64,000 bases of DNA. It comes from Patiriisocius marinus (lineage in GTDB: Bacteria; Bacteroidota; Bacteroidia; Flavobacteriales; Flavobacteriaceae). Made by a program: the position numbers and the translations under genes. Positions 10,885 to 21,045 of this stretch are shown here, piece after piece (the first letter of the stretch is position 1; every line of letters starts with the position of its first letter). A model generated the notes under the pieces. It made no database searches and was not told where the DNA came from. It saw only the letters and a list, made by a program, of their open reading frames with translations. The DNA is taken from assembly GCF_008974325.1 (NCBI RefSeq), contig NZ_BKCG01000009.1, positions 62,001-126,000 on the forward strand. Direction: 5' to 3'.

Positions 10885-12534
10885 GTGATTCAAAAAATAC
10901 TCATTTGTCTATTGTTTCTTTGCAGTACTTCGCTTTTAATGGCGCAAGAACCTGCGAGCTGGACTTATGCAACAGAAGCAGTTTCAACAATAATTGAGCT
11001 ACCTGCTTTAGATCACGCAGCAATTGCCCAAGAAGATGCTATTAATGATCTTGATAAAAGCCTGCCTTGGCGTTACGGCATAAGTAGACCTATAGATATC
11101 GATATTACTATAGATGGAGAGTGGACGGATATTCCAGATTTAAATGGAAGGATATGGCGTGCAGGAATTCAGTCTAAAAATGCGGTGAATTTAAGCGTTA
11201 ATTTTAATGAATTTTATATCCCTTTAGGTGCAAGCTTATACTTGTATAACGAAGATAAAACTGATGTTACTCGTGCTTATGGGCATAATGAAAATAATGA
11301 TTCTGGAGCTATTGGTTCTTGGTTTGTTGAAGGTGATTTAATTTGGATTGAATATTTTGAGCCTTACGGAATTAATGAAGATGCTACATTAGCAATAGAA
11401 AATATTATCCACGGATATAGAATGGGAAAAGTAGTGACTTTTCTAGATGGTCAAAGAGGATTGAATGATAGTGGTGCGTGTAATTACGATGTAAATTGTG
11501 ATACTGGTGAAGATTTCAACGATCATAAAAACATTGTAAAAAAAGCTGTTGCTTTATTAAATTTAGGGAATGGCTATTTATGTTCTGCATCATTGATGAA
11601 TAATACTGGCGATGATAAACGCCCTTTTCTTCTTACGGCAAATCATTGCTTACAAAACAGTAATCCTGCTATGTGGAGTGTGCGTTTTAATTGGATGAGC
11701 CCAAGCCCAATCTGTGGCGAGGAAGATGAAACGTTAGATATACAAACAAACTTCACGATGAGTGGTGCGGTTCTTAAAGCTTCGAGTGCTTTAAGTGATT
11801 TTGCTTTAGTAGAATTAAACACTACAATTCCACTATCTTGGGATGTAACTTTTGCGGGTTGGGATATGAGTGATGATAATCCTGAGTTTGAAGTAGGGAT
11901 TCATCATCCTAACGGTGATATAATGAAAGTTTGTAGAGATAATGATGGAGCTGTAAAGGAAAATGCTAATGGTACCGAAGTCTGGTTGATAGGTGGAGGT
12001 GCTGTAGGAGAAGGAGACGGTTGGGAAATAGGAACAACCGAAAGTGGTTCTTCAGGTTCACCATTGTTTAATGAAGATGGTAGAGTGATTGGACAATTGT
12101 ATGCAGGGCAATCGTCTTGTAATGGTAATGAAACAAATAACGATTATGATATTTACGGTAGGTTAGGGGTTTCTTGGAATTCTGGGGTTGATGAACAAAC
12201 TCGTTTAAAAGATTGGCTTGACCCCTTAAATACTGGGCAAACAACTATTAATTCGAAACAGAATGTTTTGAGTATTCCAGATAATGAACTTACAGGTAAA
12301 TTAGAGATTTATCCTAATCCAGCGAGTACTTATATTACTATTACAAATAGTCGTTTCCCAAATTTGACGTATAATTTTTATAATGCTTTTGGTCAACGTT
12401 TAATGGGAGGTTCATTATCTAATACGGATAATTTACTCGATATTAATTCGTGCGCAGATGGCATTTATTTTTTACATTTAGTTGATGAAGATTCTAATCA
12501 AGAAATAACTAAGAAGATTCTAATCTCTAAATAA
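10885..12534 (+). CDS. Secreted trypsin-like serine endopeptidase with T9SS sorting domain
   Basis: A signal peptide (IQKILICLLFLCSTSLLMAQ) precedes a pro-region and a chymotrypsin-fold protease resembling lysyl endopeptidases. The triad is readable: H254 in TANHC, D305 in SDFALVEL, S390 in GSSGSPLF. Paired cysteines fit disulfides of an exported enzyme. From about residue 470 there is a type A T9SS C-terminal domain (LEIYPNPASTYITI ... ADGIYFLHL ... KKILISK), which directs crossing of the outer membrane. The start is GTG at 10885; no in-frame ATG would keep the signal peptide. The segment 12130-12276 of this gene is also found, decayed, at 16008-16129. Confidence 0.9.
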   Translation: MIQKILICLLFLCSTSLLMAQEPASWTYATEAVSTIIELPALDHAAIAQEDAINDLDKSLPWRYGISRPIDIDITIDGEWTDIPDLNGRIWRAGIQSKNAVNLSVNFNEFYIPLGASLYLYNEDKTDVTRAYGHNENNDSGAIGSWFVEGDLIWIEYFEPYGINEDATLAIENIIHGYRMGKVVTFLDGQRGLNDSGACNYDVNCDTGEDFNDHKNIVKKAVALLNLGNGYLCSASLMNNTGDDKRPFLLTANHCLQNSNPAMWSVRFNWMSPSPICGEEDETLDIQTNFTMSGAVLKASSALSDFALVELNTTIPLSWDVTFAGWDMSDDNPEFEVGIHHPNGDIMKVCRDNDGAVKENANGTEVWLIGGGAVGEGDGWEIGTTESGSSGSPLFNEDGRVIGQLYAGQSSCNGNETNNDYDIYGRLGVSWNSGVDEQTRLKDWLDPLNTGQTTINSKQNVLSIPDNELTGKLEIYPNPASTYITITNSRFPNLTYNFYNAFGQRLMGGSLSNTDNLLDINSCADGIYFLHLVDEDSNQEITKKILISK

Positions 12535-12564
12535 TATATAGTTGTAAATTTTAGATATTAATAG

Positions 12565-12590
12565 ACCGTTCTTTTGAAACGGTTTTTTTG
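12565..12590 (+). terminator. Terminator after the protease gene
   Basis: Stem ACCGTT (12565-12570) with AACGGT (12578-12583), a 7-nt loop, then a run of seven T. Confidence 0.8.
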
Positions 12591-12615
12591 TGGGTTAAAG
12601 TCATTTAATTAGCTG

Positions 12616-12623
12616 TATTTTTG
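12616..12623 (+). promoter_or_regulatory. TAnnTTTG promoter box of rlmN, 7 nt from the start codon
   Basis: TATTTTTG matches the -7 consensus. Only 7 bases separate it from the rlmN ATG, so the transcript would be leaderless or nearly so. No TTG lies at the ideal -33 distance. Confidence 0.55.
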
Positions 12624-12630
12624 TGCCATT

Positions 12631-13671
12631 ATGAGTGATGTAAAACAAGATATTAGATCATTGTCTAAGGAAGAGCTGCGTAGTTTTTTTATAGAGCAAG
12701 GTGATCAAGCGTTTAGGGGAAATCAAGTGTATGAGTGGCTTTGGAAAAAAGGAGCTCATAACTTTGATGGAATGACTAATTTATCAAAGCAAACTAGAGA
12801 TCAACTAGAGGCTAATTTTGTAATTAACCACATTGAGGTTGATACTATGCAGCAGAGTACTGATGGAACAATTAAAAATGGAGTGAAACTTCATGACGGA
12901 CTTATAGTTGAGTCTGTTTTGATACCTACAAATAAAAGAACCACAGCTTGTGTTTCTTCTCAAGTTGGTTGTAGTCTTGATTGTAAGTTTTGTGCTACTG
13001 CGAGATTAAAAAGGATGCGTAATTTGAATCCAGATGAAATTTATGACCAAGTTGTAGCAATTGATAAGGAAAGTCGCTTATATCATAAAAGGCCCCTTTC
13101 TAACATTGTGTTTATGGGAATGGGAGAACCGTTAATGAATTATAAAAACGTTCTCGCATCTATTGATAAAATAACATCGGAAGAGGGTTTAGGAATGTCG
13201 CCAAAGCGTATCACTGTTTCTACTTCTGGAGTGCCTAAAATGATTCGTAAGCTTGCAGATGATGAGGTGAAATTTCATTTGGCTGTTTCACTACATTCAG
13301 CCATTCAATCTACTAGAGAAGAAATTATGCCATTCGCTAAATCATTTACATTAGTTGATTTAAAAGAATCACTTCTATATTGGTATGAAAAAACGGAACG
13401 AAAAATTACATATGAATATGTAGTTTGGGATGGTATAAATGACAATGCAGCGCATATACAAGCACTCGTTAAGTTTTGTCATCTTGTACCGTGTAAGGTC
13501 AATTTAATTGAATATAACCCTATTGACGACGGCATATTTCAGCAAGCAAATGCTCAAGCTATTGATGAGTATATACTCGCTTTAGAGAAAGCTCGTATTC
13601 CTGTAACAGTAAGGAGGAGTAGAGGGAAAGATATAGATGCTGCTTGTGGGCAATTAGCAAATAAGCAATAA
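12631..13671 (+). CDS. rlmN: Dual-specificity 23S rRNA A2503 / tRNA A37 C2-methyltransferase
   Basis: RlmN is a radical SAM methyltransferase. The iron-sulfur motif is CSLDCKFC, with cysteines at residues 114, 118 and 121. The mechanistic Cys is near the C-terminus (AACGQL), and GMGEPLMNY and STSGVPKMIRKLA are family signatures. Length 346 is normal. The N-terminus (DIRSLSKEELRSFFIEQG) supports the ATG at 12631. It has its own promoter box and ends in a bidirectional terminator. Its 3' end plus terminator occurs again as a degraded copy at 16154-16343. Confidence 0.96.
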   Translation: MSDVKQDIRSLSKEELRSFFIEQGDQAFRGNQVYEWLWKKGAHNFDGMTNLSKQTRDQLEANFVINHIEVDTMQQSTDGTIKNGVKLHDGLIVESVLIPTNKRTTACVSSQVGCSLDCKFCATARLKRMRNLNPDEIYDQVVAIDKESRLYHKRPLSNIVFMGMGEPLMNYKNVLASIDKITSEEGLGMSPKRITVSTSGVPKMIRKLADDEVKFHLAVSLHSAIQSTREEIMPFAKSFTLVDLKESLLYWYEKTERKITYEYVVWDGINDNAAHIQALVKFCHLVPCKVNLIEYNPIDDGIFQQANAQAIDEYILALEKARIPVTVRRSRGKDIDAACGQLANKQ

Positions 13672-13702
13672 AAAAAGCGGTTCAAAAAGAACCGCTTTTT
13701 TT
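13671..13702. terminator. Bidirectional terminator between rlmN and the convergent lipoprotein gene
   Basis: A long stem (AAAAAGCGGTTC with GAACCGCTTTTT) around a 5-nt A loop, with A and T runs on either side so it works in both directions. The same hairpin recurs at 16311-16343. Confidence 0.93.
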
Positions 13703-13709
13703 GTAAATT

Positions 13710-15065
13710 TTATTCTTCGATAATTAATCCATCACCAAGTATTGGTAAAACATTTCCATTGAATAATGGAAAGTCGCTGGCATATCTATAACATTTAAAA
13801 ACATCGTTTACTTCTAAAGGAATTGTGTATTTCCATACTACAGTTCCAGAAGCATCTATTTCATGAAGGGTACCTTCAGTTCCTTGAGTTATTAGTGTGT
13901 TTCCATTAGCTAAACGCTTAGCTCCTGAAACACGAGGTGCGTAGATGTCACTTGATACGTATGACCAAGAATAATCAGAAGGCTCATTTGCAATAGAAGG
14001 TGAGAGGGTGTAGCTTCCATCAGTTGACATTGGAATTGCGATTTCATCTACACTAGATTCAGTAGTTGATCTAGAATTGTTGAAACACATGAAGTTTCCT
14101 CCTTGATTCGGGCTATTCCCAATGTATGTAACATCGTGTTGCCCAAAAAGTAATTTGTCTGTTTCTAAAGCAGATTTATAAGCATTGGGGTTTCCCCATC
14201 TGTAAAGTAAATCACCACCTTTACCGTAAGTACCGCCATTACTTGTTTTGGCTTCAGCAATTGTTGTTGAATGATCAATAATCATCAATTCATCAAATCG
14301 CCTAGAGCTAAAAACTATTTGATCAAATTCTTCAATATAGAATAATGAGTTTACGTGACTAAGGTTAGCAATTCCAGATGTGTAATTAAGGTCAACTTTT
14401 TGAGGATTTTCAGATACAACTCCAAAATTCTGTTTAGTAGCATCGTAATCTTGTATTATATGATCCCATAGTTCCCATTGCCAAACAATTTCGGCATCAT
14501 TTGTTCCTATTGGTTTAACCTCAATAATTCTTTCACCCCATACAGCATCATCAGTTAATAAGTTGATGTCTCTACCGTTTTCAATAGCCTCGTTAGCATC
14601 TTTTAAGTCCCAAACTGAAGCGAGAAAATTACCGTTAGGTAGTGCGTGAATGTCGTGATGTAGAGTGTATTGTGGAGATGAATATTCCCAATTCCAAATT
14701 AGATTACCTTCAAAGTCAAATTTTTCAATTCCTCCAGTTCTACCTCCAAAAGAGAAAACAGGGTTTATTACTTCGTAAGATCTAATTAATTCCCCCTGCT
14801 CATTTAATGTCGCTGATATTGTTCTGTGTTCAGATTCCCATTTTTTCACAACAAATCCTTCCATATTTATTAAATAGGAATTTGTTGAGTTTACAGGTGC
14901 GATTAAAGTATATCCATTGTAAAAGCCGTCACTTTGATAAACTGAAACGTCTTCCGAAACTATTAATTCAATTGGTTGTTCAATAATGTTGTCATCTAAA
15001 TCATCACTACATGAAATTATAAGTGACAAAAGAGCTAAACAAATAAGATTTACACGATTCTTCAT
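13710..15065 (-). CDS. Arylsulfotransferase (ASST)-like lipoprotein
   Basis: The frame is open further upstream, but the ATG at 15065 gives a proper lipoprotein signal (MKNRVNLICLALLSLIISC, lipid-anchored Cys 19); the longer start would bury it. The mature part looks like an arylsulfotransferase beta-propeller: KKWESEHR, LIWNWEYSS, YTLHHDIHALPNGNFLA, LYRWGNPNAY, GQHDVTYI, MCFNNSRS and VSGAKRLANGNTLI. Blades alternating W and HD/H motifs are typical of ASST, which moves sulfate between phenolic compounds in the periplasm. Actual sulfotransferase activity is not proven by sequence; it may bind or process sulfated matter. It faces rlmN convergently. Confidence 0.75.
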   Translation of the reverse strand: MKNRVNLICLALLSLIISCSDDLDDNIIEQPIELIVSEDVSVYQSDGFYNGYTLIAPVNSTNSYLINMEGFVVKKWESEHRTISATLNEQGELIRSYEVINPVFSFGGRTGGIEKFDFEGNLIWNWEYSSPQYTLHHDIHALPNGNFLASVWDLKDANEAIENGRDINLLTDDAVWGERIIEVKPIGTNDAEIVWQWELWDHIIQDYDATKQNFGVVSENPQKVDLNYTSGIANLSHVNSLFYIEEFDQIVFSSRRFDELMIIDHSTTIAEAKTSNGGTYGKGGDLLYRWGNPNAYKSALETDKLLFGQHDVTYIGNSPNQGGNFMCFNNSRSTTESSVDEIAIPMSTDGSYTLSPSIANEPSDYSWSYVSSDIYAPRVSGAKRLANGNTLITQGTEGTLHEIDASGTVVWKYTIPLEVNDVFKCYRYASDFPLFNGNVLPILGDGLIIEE

Positions 15066-15080
15066 AACACAATTATAATT

Positions 15081-15134: not shown

Positions 15135-15941
15135 TTATTTTTTGATAACTTTAAAAGTACTAGTTTGACCATTAACGTTAGCTTTTACTACATATACACC
15201 AGCAGCGTAAGCGTTAAGATCAAGTGATGCGCTTGAGTTCTCAATAGAAGAAGTCAATACATTTTGTCCTAAAGTGTTATAGATAGAAACAGTTTCGATG
15301 TTACCATTAACAGAAGAAAGTCTTAAGTTATTATTAGCATCTACAAACTGGTTGAAACCTGCAATAGCGTTATCATCAGTTCCTAATAAACCATCAAGAG
15401 TTACATCGTCAAAGTTGATGATAAATTGATCAGAAACATCGTGGTGTCTGAAAGCAATATATACAGTAGTTGCTCCATCTAAATCAGAAACATCTAAACT
15501 TCTGTCAACAAGCTCACCAGCAGCAGCAGGATCGTTACCTAAGTCTTCATTGAAGCTTACAGTAATGGTATCATCCATAAAATCTGCAACAGTGTTTCCT
15601 GTTGAAACGTATACAGTGTAAACTTCTTGTGAGTATAATGGATCTTGTCCACCAGCGAAATAAGTTAATAATAGATCAGTTGCTCCAGTTACATCGATAG
15701 CAGGAGAAACAACGTAGTTATCTGGAGTTAATGGAGCACCGTTCCATGATTCAGAAGATAAGTGGTAAACTGCACCGTCCATAGCTGTACTTGGATCATA
15801 AGCAGTAAAGTTTTCACCATCACCATCTACATCGATAGTAGTCCAATCAGAGATTTCACCGTCTTGGAAATCGTCAGAAAATAACTGAGCATTCATTGAA
15901 AATGAAGCAACTAAAGCTGCTAAAATTGTAATTTTTTTCAT
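15135..15941 (-). CDS. T9SS-exported protein with choice-of-anchor J (MAM-like) domain
   Basis: A short Sec signal (MKKITILAALVASFSMNAQ) is followed by a jelly-roll domain that opens LFSDDFQDGEISDWTTID and continues with PDNYVVSPAID and FIINFDDVTL, typical of cleaved-adhesin/choice-of-anchor J modules. The last 75 residues are a type A sorting domain (VSIYNTLGQNVL ... LNAYAAGVYVVKAN ... FKVIKK). The gene stands alone with its own terminator. A role in adhesion or substrate binding on the cell surface is likely, but the ligand is unknown. Confidence 0.85.
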   Translation of the reverse strand: MKKITILAALVASFSMNAQLFSDDFQDGEISDWTTIDVDGDGENFTAYDPSTAMDGAVYHLSSESWNGAPLTPDNYVVSPAIDVTGATDLLLTYFAGGQDPLYSQEVYTVYVSTGNTVADFMDDTITVSFNEDLGNDPAAAGELVDRSLDVSDLDGATTVYIAFRHHDVSDQFIINFDDVTLDGLLGTDDNAIAGFNQFVDANNNLRLSSVNGNIETVSIYNTLGQNVLTSSIENSSASLDLNAYAAGVYVVKANVNGQTSTFKVIKK

Positions 15942-16007
15942 AGTAATTTTTATTAGTTTATTTATTTTGTAAATGTAATTGAATCTTAGAGTATATAAAG
16001 AACTTTT

Positions 16008-16343
16008 GAAAAAATTAACAAATATGGTTAGGACGCTAGGTTAGGTGTTATTTGAAATTCTAGGTCTGATGAAAAAACTAATTTGTAAGAAAGGCTTCGA
16101 TTAATTCTAAACAAAATGTTTTGAGTATTTTGAATGATAAATAAACAGGCATATTTAATTGAATATAAGTCTCTTGACGACGGAGTATTTCAGAAAGGAA
16201 ATACTCAAGGAGTTGATGGTTATATAGTCGTGTTATAAAATCTTGAATTACTGAAGCGTTAAGAAAGAGAAGAGAGAGATAAAATACAACCTGAAAAATT
16301 TTTAAAACGCAAAAAAAAAGCGGTTCGAAAGAACCGCTTTTTA
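16008..16343 (+). pseudogene. Decayed duplicate of protease 3' part + rlmN 3' end + terminator
   Basis: No open frame remains, but the DNA aligns with two parts of the 12-13.7 kb region in the same order and strand. 16008-16099 lines up without gaps with 12130-12221 (43 of 59 matches over 16041-16099). 16100-16129 matches 12247-12276 at 28 of 30. 16154 onward matches rlmN from 13503 (shared blocks TTTAATTGAATATAA, TTGACGACGG, TATTTCAG, CTCAAG, TTGATG, TATATA). It ends in the same GCGGTTC/GAACCGC hairpin as 13671-13702. About 1.2 kb between the two blocks is missing. It fills most of the 420-base gap between two minus-strand genes; the first 65 bases of that gap hold nothing I recognise. Confidence 0.85.
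16311..16343 (-). terminator. Terminator for the T9SS gene at 16362, derived from the rlmN terminator copy
   Basis: Stem AAAAAGCGGTTC / GAACCGCTTTTT with a 4-nt GAAA loop. The A run on the plus strand supplies the T run for minus-strand transcription. The stem is intact although the surrounding copy has decayed. Confidence 0.85.
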
Positions 16344-16361: not shown

Positions 16362-17192
16362 TTATTTTTTTACAATTTTAATAGAGCGTTGTACGCCATC
16401 AACAGTTATGTTCGCAACATACATCCCTGCTGCTAAACTAGAAATATCTACAGCACCGTCATTTCCTGATAAGTTTTTGTTAGAAACTTGTTGTCCAGTT
16501 AAGCTATAAAGTGTGATGTTTTCTAGGTTGCCTTGAGTACTTACATTTAATTTTGAATCAGCTACAAAATATACTAAAGGAGCAAAGTCATTATCATTTA
16601 ATCCTAAAACACCTTCACCAGCTTCAAGTCCTTCACCAGCAACAGTGTTAAAAGCGTAATCTTTTATTGTAATACTAGATGCGTCTGCAGGAATATCCAT
16701 TCTTACCCATCCATAAAGTTGATCACCATCAACATTAACTCTTAATGCAGCATATTTATCAACTTGTCCATCACACCATTGGCTATTTGTGTATGCACAA
16801 CCTTGCCAGTTTAAAGTTTGGTAATTTGCATTTGCAATCCAATCAGCTTCAGCTCCATCAATTGGAGAGCCTTCACTCAATGCAAATGGATAGTTGTAAT
16901 TTCCACCAGCATTCATACCTAATACTGAATTTGCATTTCCTGTACTAGTGTAAATACGAGCTGTTGTACCTGGAGTAGCTCCAGAAAGAACACCGTCATT
17001 ACTAATTTCATAGTCCACAATAGCATCTCCATTTAAATCTAACATAAAACGAGTTCCAGTTAAAGTTTCATCAGGATCTACATCTGTGTATTGAATTTGA
17101 CCAGTGGCGTCAGATACACCTGCAATTGCTACAGTCAAAGCTCCATAAGAGGCTAATTTTTTACCTAAATTTTTAGAAGTAATTTTTTTCAT
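16362..17192 (-). CDS. T9SS-exported protein of unknown function
   Basis: The N-terminus (MKKITSKNLGKKLASYGALTVAIAGVSDATGQ) is a long signal-like segment. The body has a DLNGDAIVDYEI stretch resembling a Ca-binding loop, then aromatic-rich sequence with two Cys (WQGCAYTNSQWCDG). The C-terminal 75 residues are a type A sorting domain (ITLYSLTGQQVSNKN ... DISSLAAGMYVANI ... RSIKIVKK). I do not recognise the central domain; proteins of this layout are common secreted products in marine flavobacteria. It is monocistronic and ends at the hairpin at 16311-16343. Confidence 0.75.
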   Translation of the reverse strand: MKKITSKNLGKKLASYGALTVAIAGVSDATGQIQYTDVDPDETLTGTRFMLDLNGDAIVDYEISNDGVLSGATPGTTARIYTSTGNANSVLGMNAGGNYNYPFALSEGSPIDGAEADWIANANYQTLNWQGCAYTNSQWCDGQVDKYAALRVNVDGDQLYGWVRMDIPADASSITIKDYAFNTVAGEGLEAGEGVLGLNDNDFAPLVYFVADSKLNVSTQGNLENITLYSLTGQQVSNKNLSGNDGAVDISSLAAGMYVANITVDGVQRSIKIVKK

Positions 17193-17292: not shown

Positions 17293-17445
17293 ATGTCTGA
17301 AAGTAAAGAAATACTTCCTGGAAAAAAAGTTGAAATCACTAAAGATGGCTCGTTAGGGTTACTAGCTTTGGGCGATGTGGGACTTCGCGCTTGGAGAGAA
17401 GTAAGAAATAAAATAACGAAAGAGAAATCATATGAAGAAGAATAA
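17293..17445 (+). CDS. 50-aa micro-protein overlapping the phosphodiesterase fusion gene
   Basis: A short frame (MSESKEILPGKKVEITKDGS, then LGLLALGDVGLRAWREVRNK and an acidic/basic tail) ends 14 bases inside the next gene. The overlap, the same strand and the uninterrupted frame with ordinary amino-acid content suggest a real, translationally coupled gene. No signal peptide or membrane segment. I do not know a family for it. Confidence 0.55.
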   Translation: MSESKEILPGKKVEITKDGSLGLLALGDVGLRAWREVRNKITKEKSYEEE

Positions 17446-19969
17446 ATTATTATTAATAGGTTGGGATGCTGCAGATTGGAAAATAATTGGGCCTTTACTT
17501 GCTAAAGGAGAAATGCCTGCATTGAAAAAACTAATTGATAATGGAGTTTATGGAAATATGAGCACAATGAACCCTCCATTTTCACCAATGCTTTGGACTA
17601 GTGTAGCTACGGGTAAAACCCCAGATAAGCACGGAGTTCTTGGTTTTATTGAATTAGCTCCAGATTTAAAAGGAGTACGTCCTGTAACTACAAATTCAAG
17701 AAAAACTAGAGCTGTTTGGAATATGCTTCATAATAAAGGTTATAAAAGTAATCTTGTTGGATGGTGGCCTAGTTTTCCTGCTGAACCAATAAATGGAGTT
17801 GTCGTTTCTGAAAAATTTCAAAAAATTCAGAAAGATCCTAAAAAGAAAAATCCTATTCATAATGATACTATTCATCCTACGAGTTATAGAGGACAAATTA
17901 AGGATTTAAGATTGCGCCCATACGAAGTTACAGGTCAGCACATTCTTCCATTTATGCCAAATGCAAGTAAAGTTGATCAGGAAAATGACCAATCTATTTC
18001 AACTTTTTCTAAGTTATTTGCCGAGAATGTATCTGTTCATTCTGCTGCAACCTATATAATGAAAAATACAGAGTGGGATTTTATGGCAGTTTATTATGAT
18101 TTAATTGATCATATGTCCCATGCTTTCATGAAATACCATCCTCCAAGACTTCCAGAAGTACCTCCGCATTTATATGAAATATATAAAGACGTAGTGGTAG
18201 GCTCTTACAAATTTCAAGATATGATGCTTGAAAGAACAATGGATTTAGTTGATGAGGATACTACAATTATGGTAGTTTCAGACCATGGGTTTGAATCAGG
18301 ACCAAACAGGATATTAAAAATGCCCAAGTATCCAGCAGCTCCAGCTTTAGAGCATAGACAATTTGGAATGTTTGTAGCAAGTGGCCCTAATATTAAAAAA
18401 GGCGAAAAAATATTTGGTTTAGGATTGATTGATATAGCTCCAACGATACTGCATCATTTTAATCTTCCAGTTGGAAAAGATATGGATGGTAAGGTAGCTT
18501 TAGATATTTTTAAAAACCCAGGAAAGGTTGAATATATCGATAGTTGGGATGATCTTGAAGGTGATTTTGGGGAGTTGAAAAAAGAAAGAGAAACAGATCA
18601 ATTATCCGATAGCGAAACTATGGAGCAGTTAATTGAACTAGGTTATATTGAGAGACCAGATGAGAAAATTGAAGACGCTATCATTAAAACTAGAAGTGAT
18701 TTAAAACATAATTTAGCAAGAGTTTATTTAGGAAAAAAAGATTACGAAAATGCTCGTGAAATTTTACTTGAATTAATTGAAGAACCTGAACCTATAGATG
18801 TAATTCCATTTTACATGGATTTATTAACTATTGAGCTGAAATATTCAAACTTTGATAAAGCCCAAGAATATTTAAATAAGTTACGTTCCTTAGACAGTGA
18901 ATTTAATTTAACAACATATTTTCCCGAATCACAAATATTATTAGGTAAAGGAGATGTGGATGGAGCTTTAAGTCTACTTAAAATAGCTGTTGAAAAGAAA
19001 CCAAGTCCAGAAATATGGTTTCAAATAGGTAAAATATATAGAAGAACAAGTCAATATCAAAAAGCAAGAGAAGCTTTTGAAATGGCAATTAAATTTGAGC
19101 CAGACAGAGCTAAGTATCATAGAGCTTTAGCAGAAGTTTTTGTTAGGCTAGGAGAGTATGAAGAAGCGGCTGAAACAGCACTAACAAGTATAGAATTAGT
19201 AAAGTATTTTCCCGGCGCACATTATACTTTAGGTGAAGCTTTAGAAAAACTAGGTGATTTGGAAAATGCTAAATTAGCGTATGAAACTGCAAATAGATTA
19301 AAGCCTAAAGCATTTCCTCGAGTGGAAAAAGCGCTTGAAAATATTAAAGAAAAACTAGCTCAGCCATTAGAACTTAGGGATAAGGCTGTGAATAAATATC
19401 GAGAGAATCAAATTGTGCTTGTTTCAGGTCTACCAAGAAGTGGTACATCTGTGATGATGCAAATGCTTGACAAAGGTGGTGTTTCTGTTTTACAAGATGG
19501 TAAAAGAGAAGCTGATGTAAATAACCCTAAAGGATATTATGAATATGAACCTGTAATGAGGCTTCATCGAGATAATAAATGGATGGGCGATGCACAGAAT
19601 AAAGTTGTGAAAGTAGTCGCTCCTCTTTTAAAACATATTGATCCAAAGTACAGATATAAAATTATTTTTATGAAACGTGATTTGCACGAAGTTGTTAAGT
19701 CACAACAAAAAATGATTGGCAGAAATACAGACACTTTGCCTATTAATTTATTGAATTCTTATCAAGAACAACTTAACCAAATTGAAATTTGGAAAGAAAG
19801 AGAGCCTGGAGTTGAACTTGTTTATATAGATTATAAAGATGTATTAAATAATATAGACGAGGTTACTAGCAAGGTTTCTTCATTTTTAGGTACTGATCTT
19901 AATAAGGAAGCAATGGCTTCTTGTGTAGATAAATCGCTGTATAGAAATCAAGTTTCGGTTAATAAATAG
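17432..19969 (+). CDS. AlkP-superfamily phosphodiesterase - TPR - sulfotransferase fusion protein
   Basis: Three parts can be read in 845 residues. Residues 1-400: an alkaline-phosphatase-superfamily phosphohydrolase/phosphodiesterase with metal and nucleophile motifs LIGWDAADWK, SPMLWTSVATGKTPDKHG and VVSDHGFESG. Residues 430-645: TPR-like helical repeats (for example IWFQIGKIYRRTSQYQKARE, YHRALAEVFVRLGEYEEAAE). Residues 660-845: a sulfotransferase with the PAPS 5'-phosphosulfate loop SGLPRSGTS (665-673) and a later RDLHEVVKSQ element. No signal peptide, so it is cytosolic. The pairing of a phosphoester/sulfoester-type hydrolase with a sulfotransferase suggests handling of sulfated metabolites or glycans, but the substrate is unknown. 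Confidence 0.85.
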   Translation: MKKNKLLLIGWDAADWKIIGPLLAKGEMPALKKLIDNGVYGNMSTMNPPFSPMLWTSVATGKTPDKHGVLGFIELAPDLKGVRPVTTNSRKTRAVWNMLHNKGYKSNLVGWWPSFPAEPINGVVVSEKFQKIQKDPKKKNPIHNDTIHPTSYRGQIKDLRLRPYEVTGQHILPFMPNASKVDQENDQSISTFSKLFAENVSVHSAATYIMKNTEWDFMAVYYDLIDHMSHAFMKYHPPRLPEVPPHLYEIYKDVVVGSYKFQDMMLERTMDLVDEDTTIMVVSDHGFESGPNRILKMPKYPAAPALEHRQFGMFVASGPNIKKGEKIFGLGLIDIAPTILHHFNLPVGKDMDGKVALDIFKNPGKVEYIDSWDDLEGDFGELKKERETDQLSDSETMEQLIELGYIERPDEKIEDAIIKTRSDLKHNLARVYLGKKDYENAREILLELIEEPEPIDVIPFYMDLLTIELKYSNFDKAQEYLNKLRSLDSEFNLTTYFPESQILLGKGDVDGALSLLKIAVEKKPSPEIWFQIGKIYRRTSQYQKAREAFEMAIKFEPDRAKYHRALAEVFVRLGEYEEAAETALTSIELVKYFPGAHYTLGEALEKLGDLENAKLAYETANRLKPKAFPRVEKALENIKEKLAQPLELRDKAVNKYRENQIVLVSGLPRSGTSVMMQMLDKGGVSVLQDGKREADVNNPKGYYEYEPVMRLHRDNKWMGDAQNKVVKVVAPLLKHIDPKYRYKIIFMKRDLHEVVKSQQKMIGRNTDTLPINLLNSYQEQLNQIEIWKEREPGVELVYIDYKDVLNNIDEVTSKVSSFLGTDLNKEAMASCVDKSLYRNQVSVNK

Positions 19970-20067: not shown

Positions 20068-21045
20068 ATGAAAGTAGTAGCGCAAATAAAACTTCCCATT
20101 GAAGAAGAAATGGAACTTTTTGAAAAGAAATTTTCAAGTTCTATGTCCTCTAAAGTTTCTCTACTTAATCGAATTACTCATTACGTGGTTAATAGAAAGG
20201 GAAAACAAATGCGTCCCATGTTTGTTTTTCTTATTGCTAAAATGCATCATAATGGTGCTATTAATGAACGTACGTATCGTGGAGCCTCAGTAATAGAATT
20301 AATCCATACTGCAACCTTAGTTCACGATGATGTGGTTGATGATAGTGATCGTCGAAGAGGATTCTTCTCTATTAATGCCCTGTGGAAAAATAAAATTGCT
20401 GTTTTAGTAGGAGATTTTCTACTTTCAAAAGGTTTATTGTTGTCAATTGATAATGGTGATTTCGATTTACTTAAAATAATTTCAGTCGCAGTACGTGAAA
20501 TGAGTGAAGGAGAGTTACTTCAAATTGAAAAAGCAAGAAGGTTAGACATTACCGAGGAGATTTACTTCGAAATTATCCGTCAAAAAACAGCTACACTCAT
20601 TGCAGCCTGTTGTGCAATGGGAGCTCAATCTGTCCATGCGCCTGACGAAGTTGTGGAGCAAATGCGAGAATTTGGTGAATTGATAGGTATTGCATTCCAA
20701 ATTAAGGATGACCTCTTTGACTATGGAACCGATTCAATAGGTAAACCCACAGGTATTGATATTAAAGAACAGAAAATGACGCTACCTTTAATCTATACCT
20801 TGAATAATGTAACCGATAAAGAAAAACGCTGGTTGATAAATTCGGTTAAAAATCATAATACAGACAAAAAGCGTGTTAAAGAAGTTATCAATTTTGTGAA
20901 AAACAAAGGAGGGCTAGAGTATGCTGTTGAGCAAATGAAGGACTATCAACAAAAAGCACTTTCCATTCTTAAAAAATTCCCTACTTCCCCATATAGAGCC
21001 TCATTAGAACTAATGGTTAATTATGTTATTGAACGTAAAAAGTAA
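20068..21045 (+). CDS. ispB: Long-chain trans-polyprenyl diphosphate synthase
   Basis: This isoprenoid chain-elongating enzyme has both Asp-rich motifs: DDVVD at residues 87-91 (within LVHDDVVDDSDRRRG) and DDLFD at 214-218 (within FQIKDDLFDYG), plus GKQMRPM and GDFLLSKG. Length 325 fits octaprenyl/solanesyl-type synthases, and the product is probably the menaquinone side chain (in Bacteroidetes menaquinone is the main quinone). The chain length cannot be set by eye. Monocistronic, with a weak AT-only hairpin after it (about 21046-21078). Confidence 0.9.
   Translation: MKVVAQIKLPIEEEMELFEKKFSSSMSSKVSLLNRITHYVVNRKGKQMRPMFVFLIAKMHHNGAINERTYRGASVIELIHTATLVHDDVVDDSDRRRGFFSINALWKNKIAVLVGDFLLSKGLLLSIDNGDFDLLKIISVAVREMSEGELLQIEKARRLDITEEIYFEIIRQKTATLIAACCAMGAQSVHAPDEVVEQMREFGELIGIAFQIKDDLFDYGTDSIGKPTGIDIKEQKMTLPLIYTLNNVTDKEKRWLINSVKNHNTDKKRVKEVINFVKNKGGLEYAVEQMKDYQQKALSILKKFPTSPYRASLELMVNYVIERKK

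Follow-up and report, generated by a model that had tools for sequence, protein, structure and literature searches.

A decayed copy of the protease-rlmN junction, with its terminator retained, at the join of two gene cassettes in Patiriisocius marinus

The rlmN-ispB interval and the remnant within it

The window, by which we mean the whole 64,000-nucleotide stretch of Patiriisocius marinus DNA that was analysed (GCF_008974325.1, contig NZ_BKCG01000009.1, positions 62,001 to 126,000), belongs to a draft genome of 28 contigs. Its rlmN and ispB genes enclose a stack of genes in the order rlmN, ASST, Cleaved_Adhesin, a protease-rlmN-terminator remnant, Por276, PDE and ispB (Table 1). Counterparts of the protease lie immediately 5' of rlmN in eight relatives of the same genus, with 58-66% identity, and the genus member G006 has at the position of ASST a gene 75% identical to it, followed by a counterpart of ClvAdh (79% identity; sisters in the tree, support 100). 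Pfam recognized no integrase in the four larger genes of this interval in the window. Pfam was applied to the window genes alone; genes of relatives termed ClvAdh-type are named from their similarity to the window protein, which in some extends over the C-terminal sorting tail only.

Table 1. Features of the rlmN-ispB site and its left flank, in window coordinates.
Feature	Position	Strand	Family or fold	Remark
Trypsin-like protease, type IX secretion (Por_Secre_tail) C-terminus	10885-12534	+	Pfam PF00089/PF13365/PF18962	Parent of remnant part 1
rlmN (23S rRNA methyltransferase, radical SAM), intact	12631-13671	+	Pfam PF21016, PF04055	Parent of remnant part 2
Terminator-like hairpin of intact rlmN	13670-13702		-20.8 kcal/mol	A7-stem-T7; bidirectional use possible
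ASST (arylsulfotransferase-family) gene	13710-15068	-	Pfam PF05935	Cassette 1
Cleaved_Adhesin + Por_Secre_tail protein (ClvAdh)	15135-15941	-	Pfam PF07675, PF18962	Cassette 1
Join of cassette 1 and remnant	15999-16007			Likeness to G006 stops at about 15999; likeness to protease starts at 16007
Remnant part 1, protease 3' part	16007-16155	+		Parent 12129-12302; 25-nt internal deletion
Remnant part 2, rlmN 3' end	16153-16306	+		Parent 13502 onward
Remnant terminator	16312-16343		-17.5 kcal/mol	Stem same as that of intact rlmN; A9 before, T5 after (former rlmN side)
Por_Secre_tail protein (Por276)	16362-17192	-	Pfam PF18962	Cassette 2; same position in relatives
Phosphodiesterase/TPR/sulfotransferase-like protein (PDE)	17432-19969	+	Pfam PF01663, TPR families, PF13469	Cassette 2
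Polyprenyl synthetase (ispB)	20068-21045	+	Pfam PF00348	Right core flank of variable site

The original prediction, made from the letters of the sequence, had described the stretch between ClvAdh and Por276 as a fossil duplicate of the protease-rlmN junction that keeps order and strand, and our alignments agree with it. By local alignment, 16007-16097 matches protease positions 12129-12219 (67/91 identical) and 16098-16155 matches 12245-12302 (44/58), the two being separated by a 25-nt gap that corresponds to parent positions 12220-12244; 16153-16237 then matches rlmN at 13502-13586 (68/85), and the similarity runs on with small gaps through the terminator to 13702. Order and strand of the parents are preserved in both parts. 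The extent proposed earlier stood except for its first base, which is 16007 rather than 16008, and a block of 28 identities in 30 was recovered at 12247-12276 against 16100-16129. As had also been claimed, about 1.2 kb of the parent (12303-13501) is absent, with an ATT triplet common to both sides of the joint.

The similarity is statistically secure. With the terminator left out, the protease and rlmN parts gave scores of 115 and 131, whereas 1000 shuffles that preserved dinucleotides reached at most 67 and 57. When the genome was searched against itself by BLAST, the stretch matched, besides itself, solely the two parent places, with E = 1.5e-23 (74% identity) for the rlmN 3' end and terminator and E = 1.1e-6 (65%) for the protease part. 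The claim that no reading frame is open was upheld in the sense that no ORF of at least 60 amino acids with an ATG, GTG or TTG start is present; one minus-strand frame is open over 87 codons, yet without such an ORF, and all three forward frames contain stops. The stretch thus combines ordered, significant similarity to functional parents with the stops, indels and spread of changes over codon positions (see below) that denote absence of coding constraint.

Ancestry of the remnant and the site in relatives

Both parts of the remnant found their best match in the window's own copy, with scores of 117 (protease) and 131 (rlmN); the best scores of relatives were 48 and 83 among 105 loci (one pair being duplicate) and 43 and 71 among 21 further loci (one a duplicate). 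A tree of 27 rows, including 25 relatives and built on 129 rlmN sites, placed the remnant as sister to the window's intact rlmN with support of 98/98, in a bootstrap that had not fully converged. Over these sites the two copies differ by 0.30, 0.16 and 0.21 at the first, second and third codon positions. Over the whole of rlmN, the window differs from nine near relatives (eight genus members and G185) by about 0.2, 0.1 and 0.5, and at the same 129 sites the intact gene differs from them mainly at third positions (0.37-0.63). Polarising the changes by the majority base of these nine relatives assigned 16 to the remnant and 6 to the intact copy, with 7 undecided, and at codon positions 1 and 2 the division was 14 to 2. 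Remnant and intact copy descend from the same lineage, and the remnant is a decayed paralogue (a pseudogene remnant) of the window's own protease-rlmN with neutral-like decay. Its place in the tree, together with the lower third-position divergence, suggests a duplication that postdates the split from the compared relatives. A donor had been expected in the lineage that shares the window's PDE cassette (G102, G098, G138 and G368); this was rejected, the remnant being nearest to the window's own copy.

A gene order of aroA-queA-(protease)-rlmN-ispB is frequent among Flavobacteriaceae, and the rlmN-ispB interval is variable: in relatives it is empty or holds a Cleaved_Adhesin-like gene, ASST and such a gene, or a Por-tail gene and a phosphodiesterase. 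The window holds the last two contents together, with the remnant between them. From 142 candidates we retained 106 non-redundant intervals, after removing 4 duplicates and 32 stretches without a full rlmN or without ispB (among them those of G001, G002, G003 and G185); 40 intervals are shorter than 200 nt and 22 carry the PDE cassette. Each cassette occurs singly at the same site, ASST with a ClvAdh-type gene in G006, which has these two only, and in G298, where the ClvAdh-like gene is more distant, and Por276-PDE in G007, G008 and G010. Judged from these arrangements, the remnant marks the join of two cassettes that relatives have one at a time; its left joint has no counterpart in G006. That the ASST and Cleaved_Adhesin pair between the two copies is a separate cassette had been missed in the original prediction.

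Remnants were sought in the 66 intervals of at least 200 nt, the 40 shorter ones being set aside. Among the 22 PDE loci, a ClvAdh-type cassette precedes Por276 in the window's genome (G000) and in G004, and both have their own rlmN/protease remnant (best E of 1.9e-20 and 9.8e-42, respectively); the other 64 searched intervals gave no match better than 5.7e-5. Three weak matches, in L063 (37 nt), L198 (47 nt) and L225 (30 nt, in ispB on the minus strand), had E values from 5.7e-5 to 6.7e-4 and were treated as chance.

The two cassettes appear to have separate histories of their own, because in our quick single-gene trees, read against an equally quick core tree, the window PDE groups with other genera (G102, G098, G138 and G368) and ClvAdh with G006, so that the ASST-ClvAdh pair matches the genus. 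The window PDE is 73% identical to that of G102, from another genus, compared with 57-61% to those of genus mates, and the sister group of the window carries PDE genes of several lineages; exchange of this cassette between genera is probable. PDE is not confined to the vicinity of rlmN, 18 of the 28 stretches fetched around PDE having rlmN beside the cassette and 10 not. The 719 nt that separate rlmN from Por276 in G102 (L156) contain a small minus-strand ORF as well as two terminator-like hairpins, of which one follows rlmN and the other precedes Por276; by eye their stems look related. No rlmN remnant was detected in this gap, where the same erosion may have run its full course. In G121 (L165) an additional gene lies towards ispB, and neither an ispB nor an rlmN remnant was detected with it. 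As a separate observation, L088 (Bizionia arctica) has a remnant of the 3' part of a PDE (residues 788-841) at about 1180-1341 nt past rlmN, with a Cleaved_Adhesin-like gene on one side and ispB on the other, possibly the trace of a replaced PDE cassette.

A second case came from G004 and G003, in which a different Cleaved_Adhesin-like gene stands before Por276 and an rlmN remnant lies at the join (L038 8775-8957 in G004 and L036 131-549 in G003, in the coordinates of the loci as fetched); in G003 the arrangement is on split contigs and the inserted gene is cut by a contig end. The two remnants share a left border at about rlmN codon 19 and keep the 3' end and terminator, and they differ in their internal deletions. 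Between the two species, the inserted gene shows 97% identity over 124 bases at its 3' end; from the start of that gene into the remnant the identity is 89% (185/208), that of the intact rlmN genes being 86%. In its 5' part the G004 remnant shares 89% identity with the intact rlmN of G003 and only 69% with G004's own, and the remnant ends in the terminator of G001, G010 and G185, whereas the intact G004 rlmN has another. In the core tree G003 falls outside a group of G004 with G001, G007, G010 and G185, the last four of which are without the insert. Transfer of the stack between species and its loss in the others would both fit, and we lean towards transfer. Since left borders and inserts differ from those of the window, we count the window and G003/G004 as two independent events; the alternative is a common older event with a later change of insert. 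In G003, the intact copy (L037 12380-12460) and the remnant (L036 540-620) agree to within about one base over the last rlmN bases and the terminator, although a part farther upstream is 89% alike; gene conversion between the two is possible.

The suggestion that relatives might preserve an intact second copy was not borne out: no second full-length rlmN was found, among the matches listed, in 397 genomes of the family (8 of them without any match), nor in 11 genomes of the genus. Four of these 11 have no full rlmN or a completeness of 82% at most, and remnants were seen among the 11 in the window, G003 and G004. Two rlmN matches, again among those listed, were obtained in five of the 397 genomes, namely G000, G244, G326, G353 and G399. 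Those of G244 (C1:769354-770380) and G326 (C4:78439-79397) were rejected as remnants, the two pieces looking like adjacent parts of one frame-broken gene, through either a sequencing error or a real loss, and those of G353 and G399 were rejected for a second match that is weak (E of about 4e-4 to 6e-4) and lies elsewhere. This protein search, which short remnants can escape and whose sample held 2 of the 10 genus mates (G006 and G008), gave no further remnants.

Origin of the arrangement and fate of the terminator

We consider it probable that additive recombination anchored in protease-rlmN stacked the two cassettes, and that the displaced anchor then decayed towards its terminator. The rlmN-ispB interval is a variable site between core genes with alternative cassettes, and an ancestor of this genome would have gained a further cassette, which may be either of the two, beside the existing one instead of in its place. 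Homology in protease-rlmN may have joined a segment of protease, rlmN, terminator, ASST and Cleaved_Adhesin to a 5'-truncated protease-rlmN-terminator followed by Por276 and PDE, the partners presumably being two variants within the lineage of the window itself. The product has the form anchor, new cassette, truncated anchor, old cassette, which could have come from a single crossover with a circular intermediate or from the combination of a homologous with an illegitimate joint. The upstream copy would have remained complete while the downstream one, being redundant, took on substitutions and lost segments of 1.2 kb and 25 nt; the terminator probably stayed since Por276 still ends there. In the window, G004 and G003 alike, a truncated copy of the anchor that lies upstream is found where the modules meet. 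Against stacking stands the failure to find a genome with an intact second rlmN, and no close relative was found with one cassette and a near-identical flank, so that no intermediate was observed. One-step import from the G102 lineage is not supported, and a donor of the same lineage must be assumed, because the remnant resembles the window's own copy. Extra genes can evidently be present without a trace, as G102 and G121 have them without a detected remnant.

The alternative that survives best, although we think it unlikely, is a plain tandem duplication of protease-rlmN-terminator within one genome, with ASST-ClvAdh inserted between the copies later and independently. It would account for the closeness of the remnant to the window's own copy, but requires two unrelated events at one point, and the start of the remnant falls approximately where the similarity of the cassette ends. 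Furthermore, none of the 66 searched intervals has a clear duplicate without a stacked cassette, while both intervals with a ClvAdh-type cassette before Por276 carry a remnant.

The original prediction had read the remnant as a stray duplicated fragment whose perfect terminator was co-opted by the adjacent convergent minus-strand gene, and part of this reading is sound. The stem GCGGTTC/GAACCGC is indeed the same in both copies; the stem-loop occurs twice in the 3.56-Mb genome, in both cases at these copies, and is absent from the rlmN ends of relatives among those listed. For neither copy were any of 200 shuffles as stable as the plus-strand fold, and the longer flanking run of the remnant, T9 on the minus strand, serves the minus-strand gene. 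All 14 stem bases are kept where the rlmN part retains about 77% identity (chance 0.767^14 = 0.024), which suggests selection on the stem, although retention by itself is weak evidence. Recruitment, however, is largely refuted by synteny. Por276 adjoins rlmN directly in 19 of the 22 PDE-cassette intervals, the exceptions being the window, G004 and G102; in these 19 loci the end of the Por276 ORF lies 46-80 nt from the rlmN stop, and in 15 of them a terminator-like hairpin, identified by a crude rule, stands between the two genes. The window Por276 has only 33-54% identity to the gene taken as its positional counterpart in relatives. The gene was most likely beside rlmN before the duplication, as this synteny points to, and the terminator, kept in the remnants of the window, G003 and G004 alike, is on this comparison retained and not co-opted; new recruitment need not be invoked, because the remnant fills the usual place of rlmN beside Por276. 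We regard the earlier reading as very improbable.

Slightly less credible still is a site-specific mobile element that targets the rlmN 3' end and brings a replacement end, leaving the original as the displaced remnant. In the window and in G003 and G004 the border does fall at the rlmN 3' end, but the window duplicate also includes protease sequence from upstream of rlmN, the left ends (about protease codon 415 in the window and about rlmN codon 19 in G003/G004) give no fixed crossover site, albeit from two events only, and the Pfam search of the four larger window genes found no integrase. Chance similarity, or an assembly artefact of the kind that a draft genome might harbour, is scarcely conceivable, given scores far above those of the shuffles, a divergence of 20-26% that is unlike an assembly duplicate, and analogous remnants in other assemblies.

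Significance and relation to known systems

Our search of the open literature found no paper on a remnant at rlmN in Flavobacteriaceae. The locus clearly illustrates a class of event that is already known, with the unusual feature of a housekeeping anchor, and offers no new mechanism. At a site between core genes it captures a legible intermediate between the exchange and the stacking of cassettes, and it places the event in time with respect to the splits of species. It also supplies a simple signature for counting additive transfer in other genomes, namely a shortened copy of the anchor where cassettes meet. It also suggests that terminators between convergent genes may outlast the gene in which they originated. 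Tentatively, and at odds that we would not put high, the rlmN-ispB interval of Flavobacteriaceae may be a general integrase-free cassette site whose housekeeping anchors are repeatedly duplicated on entry and eroded to bidirectional terminators; if so, many of the 'extra' terminators that stand between convergent genes would be all that can still be seen of displaced genes.

By analogy, we infer that the event belongs to the same class as the displacement models proposed for Rhs and type VI secretion (T6SS) loci. For Rhs C-terminal displacement, a single crossover with a circular intermediate has been proposed (Jackson et al. 2009, PMC2935791). As in that model, the incoming variable part would use homology to a constant upstream part, and the old part would be shunted downstream with a fragment of the constant one. 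In Rhs the constant and variable parts form one gene, whereas the anchor here is a complete gene pair, protease-rlmN, and the cargo consists of convergent genes for mostly secreted proteins; and the core fragments are reported there as identical within a locus, while the displaced anchor here is decaying (PMC2935791). In the corresponding account of Vibrio T6SS effector modules, displacement is stepwise and perhaps due to homology-facilitated illegitimate recombination (Kirchberger et al. 2017, PMC5361080). That account shares with ours an additive insertion anchored on one side, with part of the older module kept downstream, but arrays of immunity genes are kept in Vibrio, compared with two unrelated cassettes and a non-coding anchor remnant in the window (PMC5361080). 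Finally, hotspots without integrases are described as exchanging their contents via recombination in the core genes on either side (Oliveira et al. 2017, PMC5635113), and the window resembles them in its variable content between the conserved rlmN and ispB, with no recognised mobile element among the window genes searched. The model set out for those hotspots is replacement by double recombination (PMC5635113), whereas the window would represent an addition that left a fossil behind.
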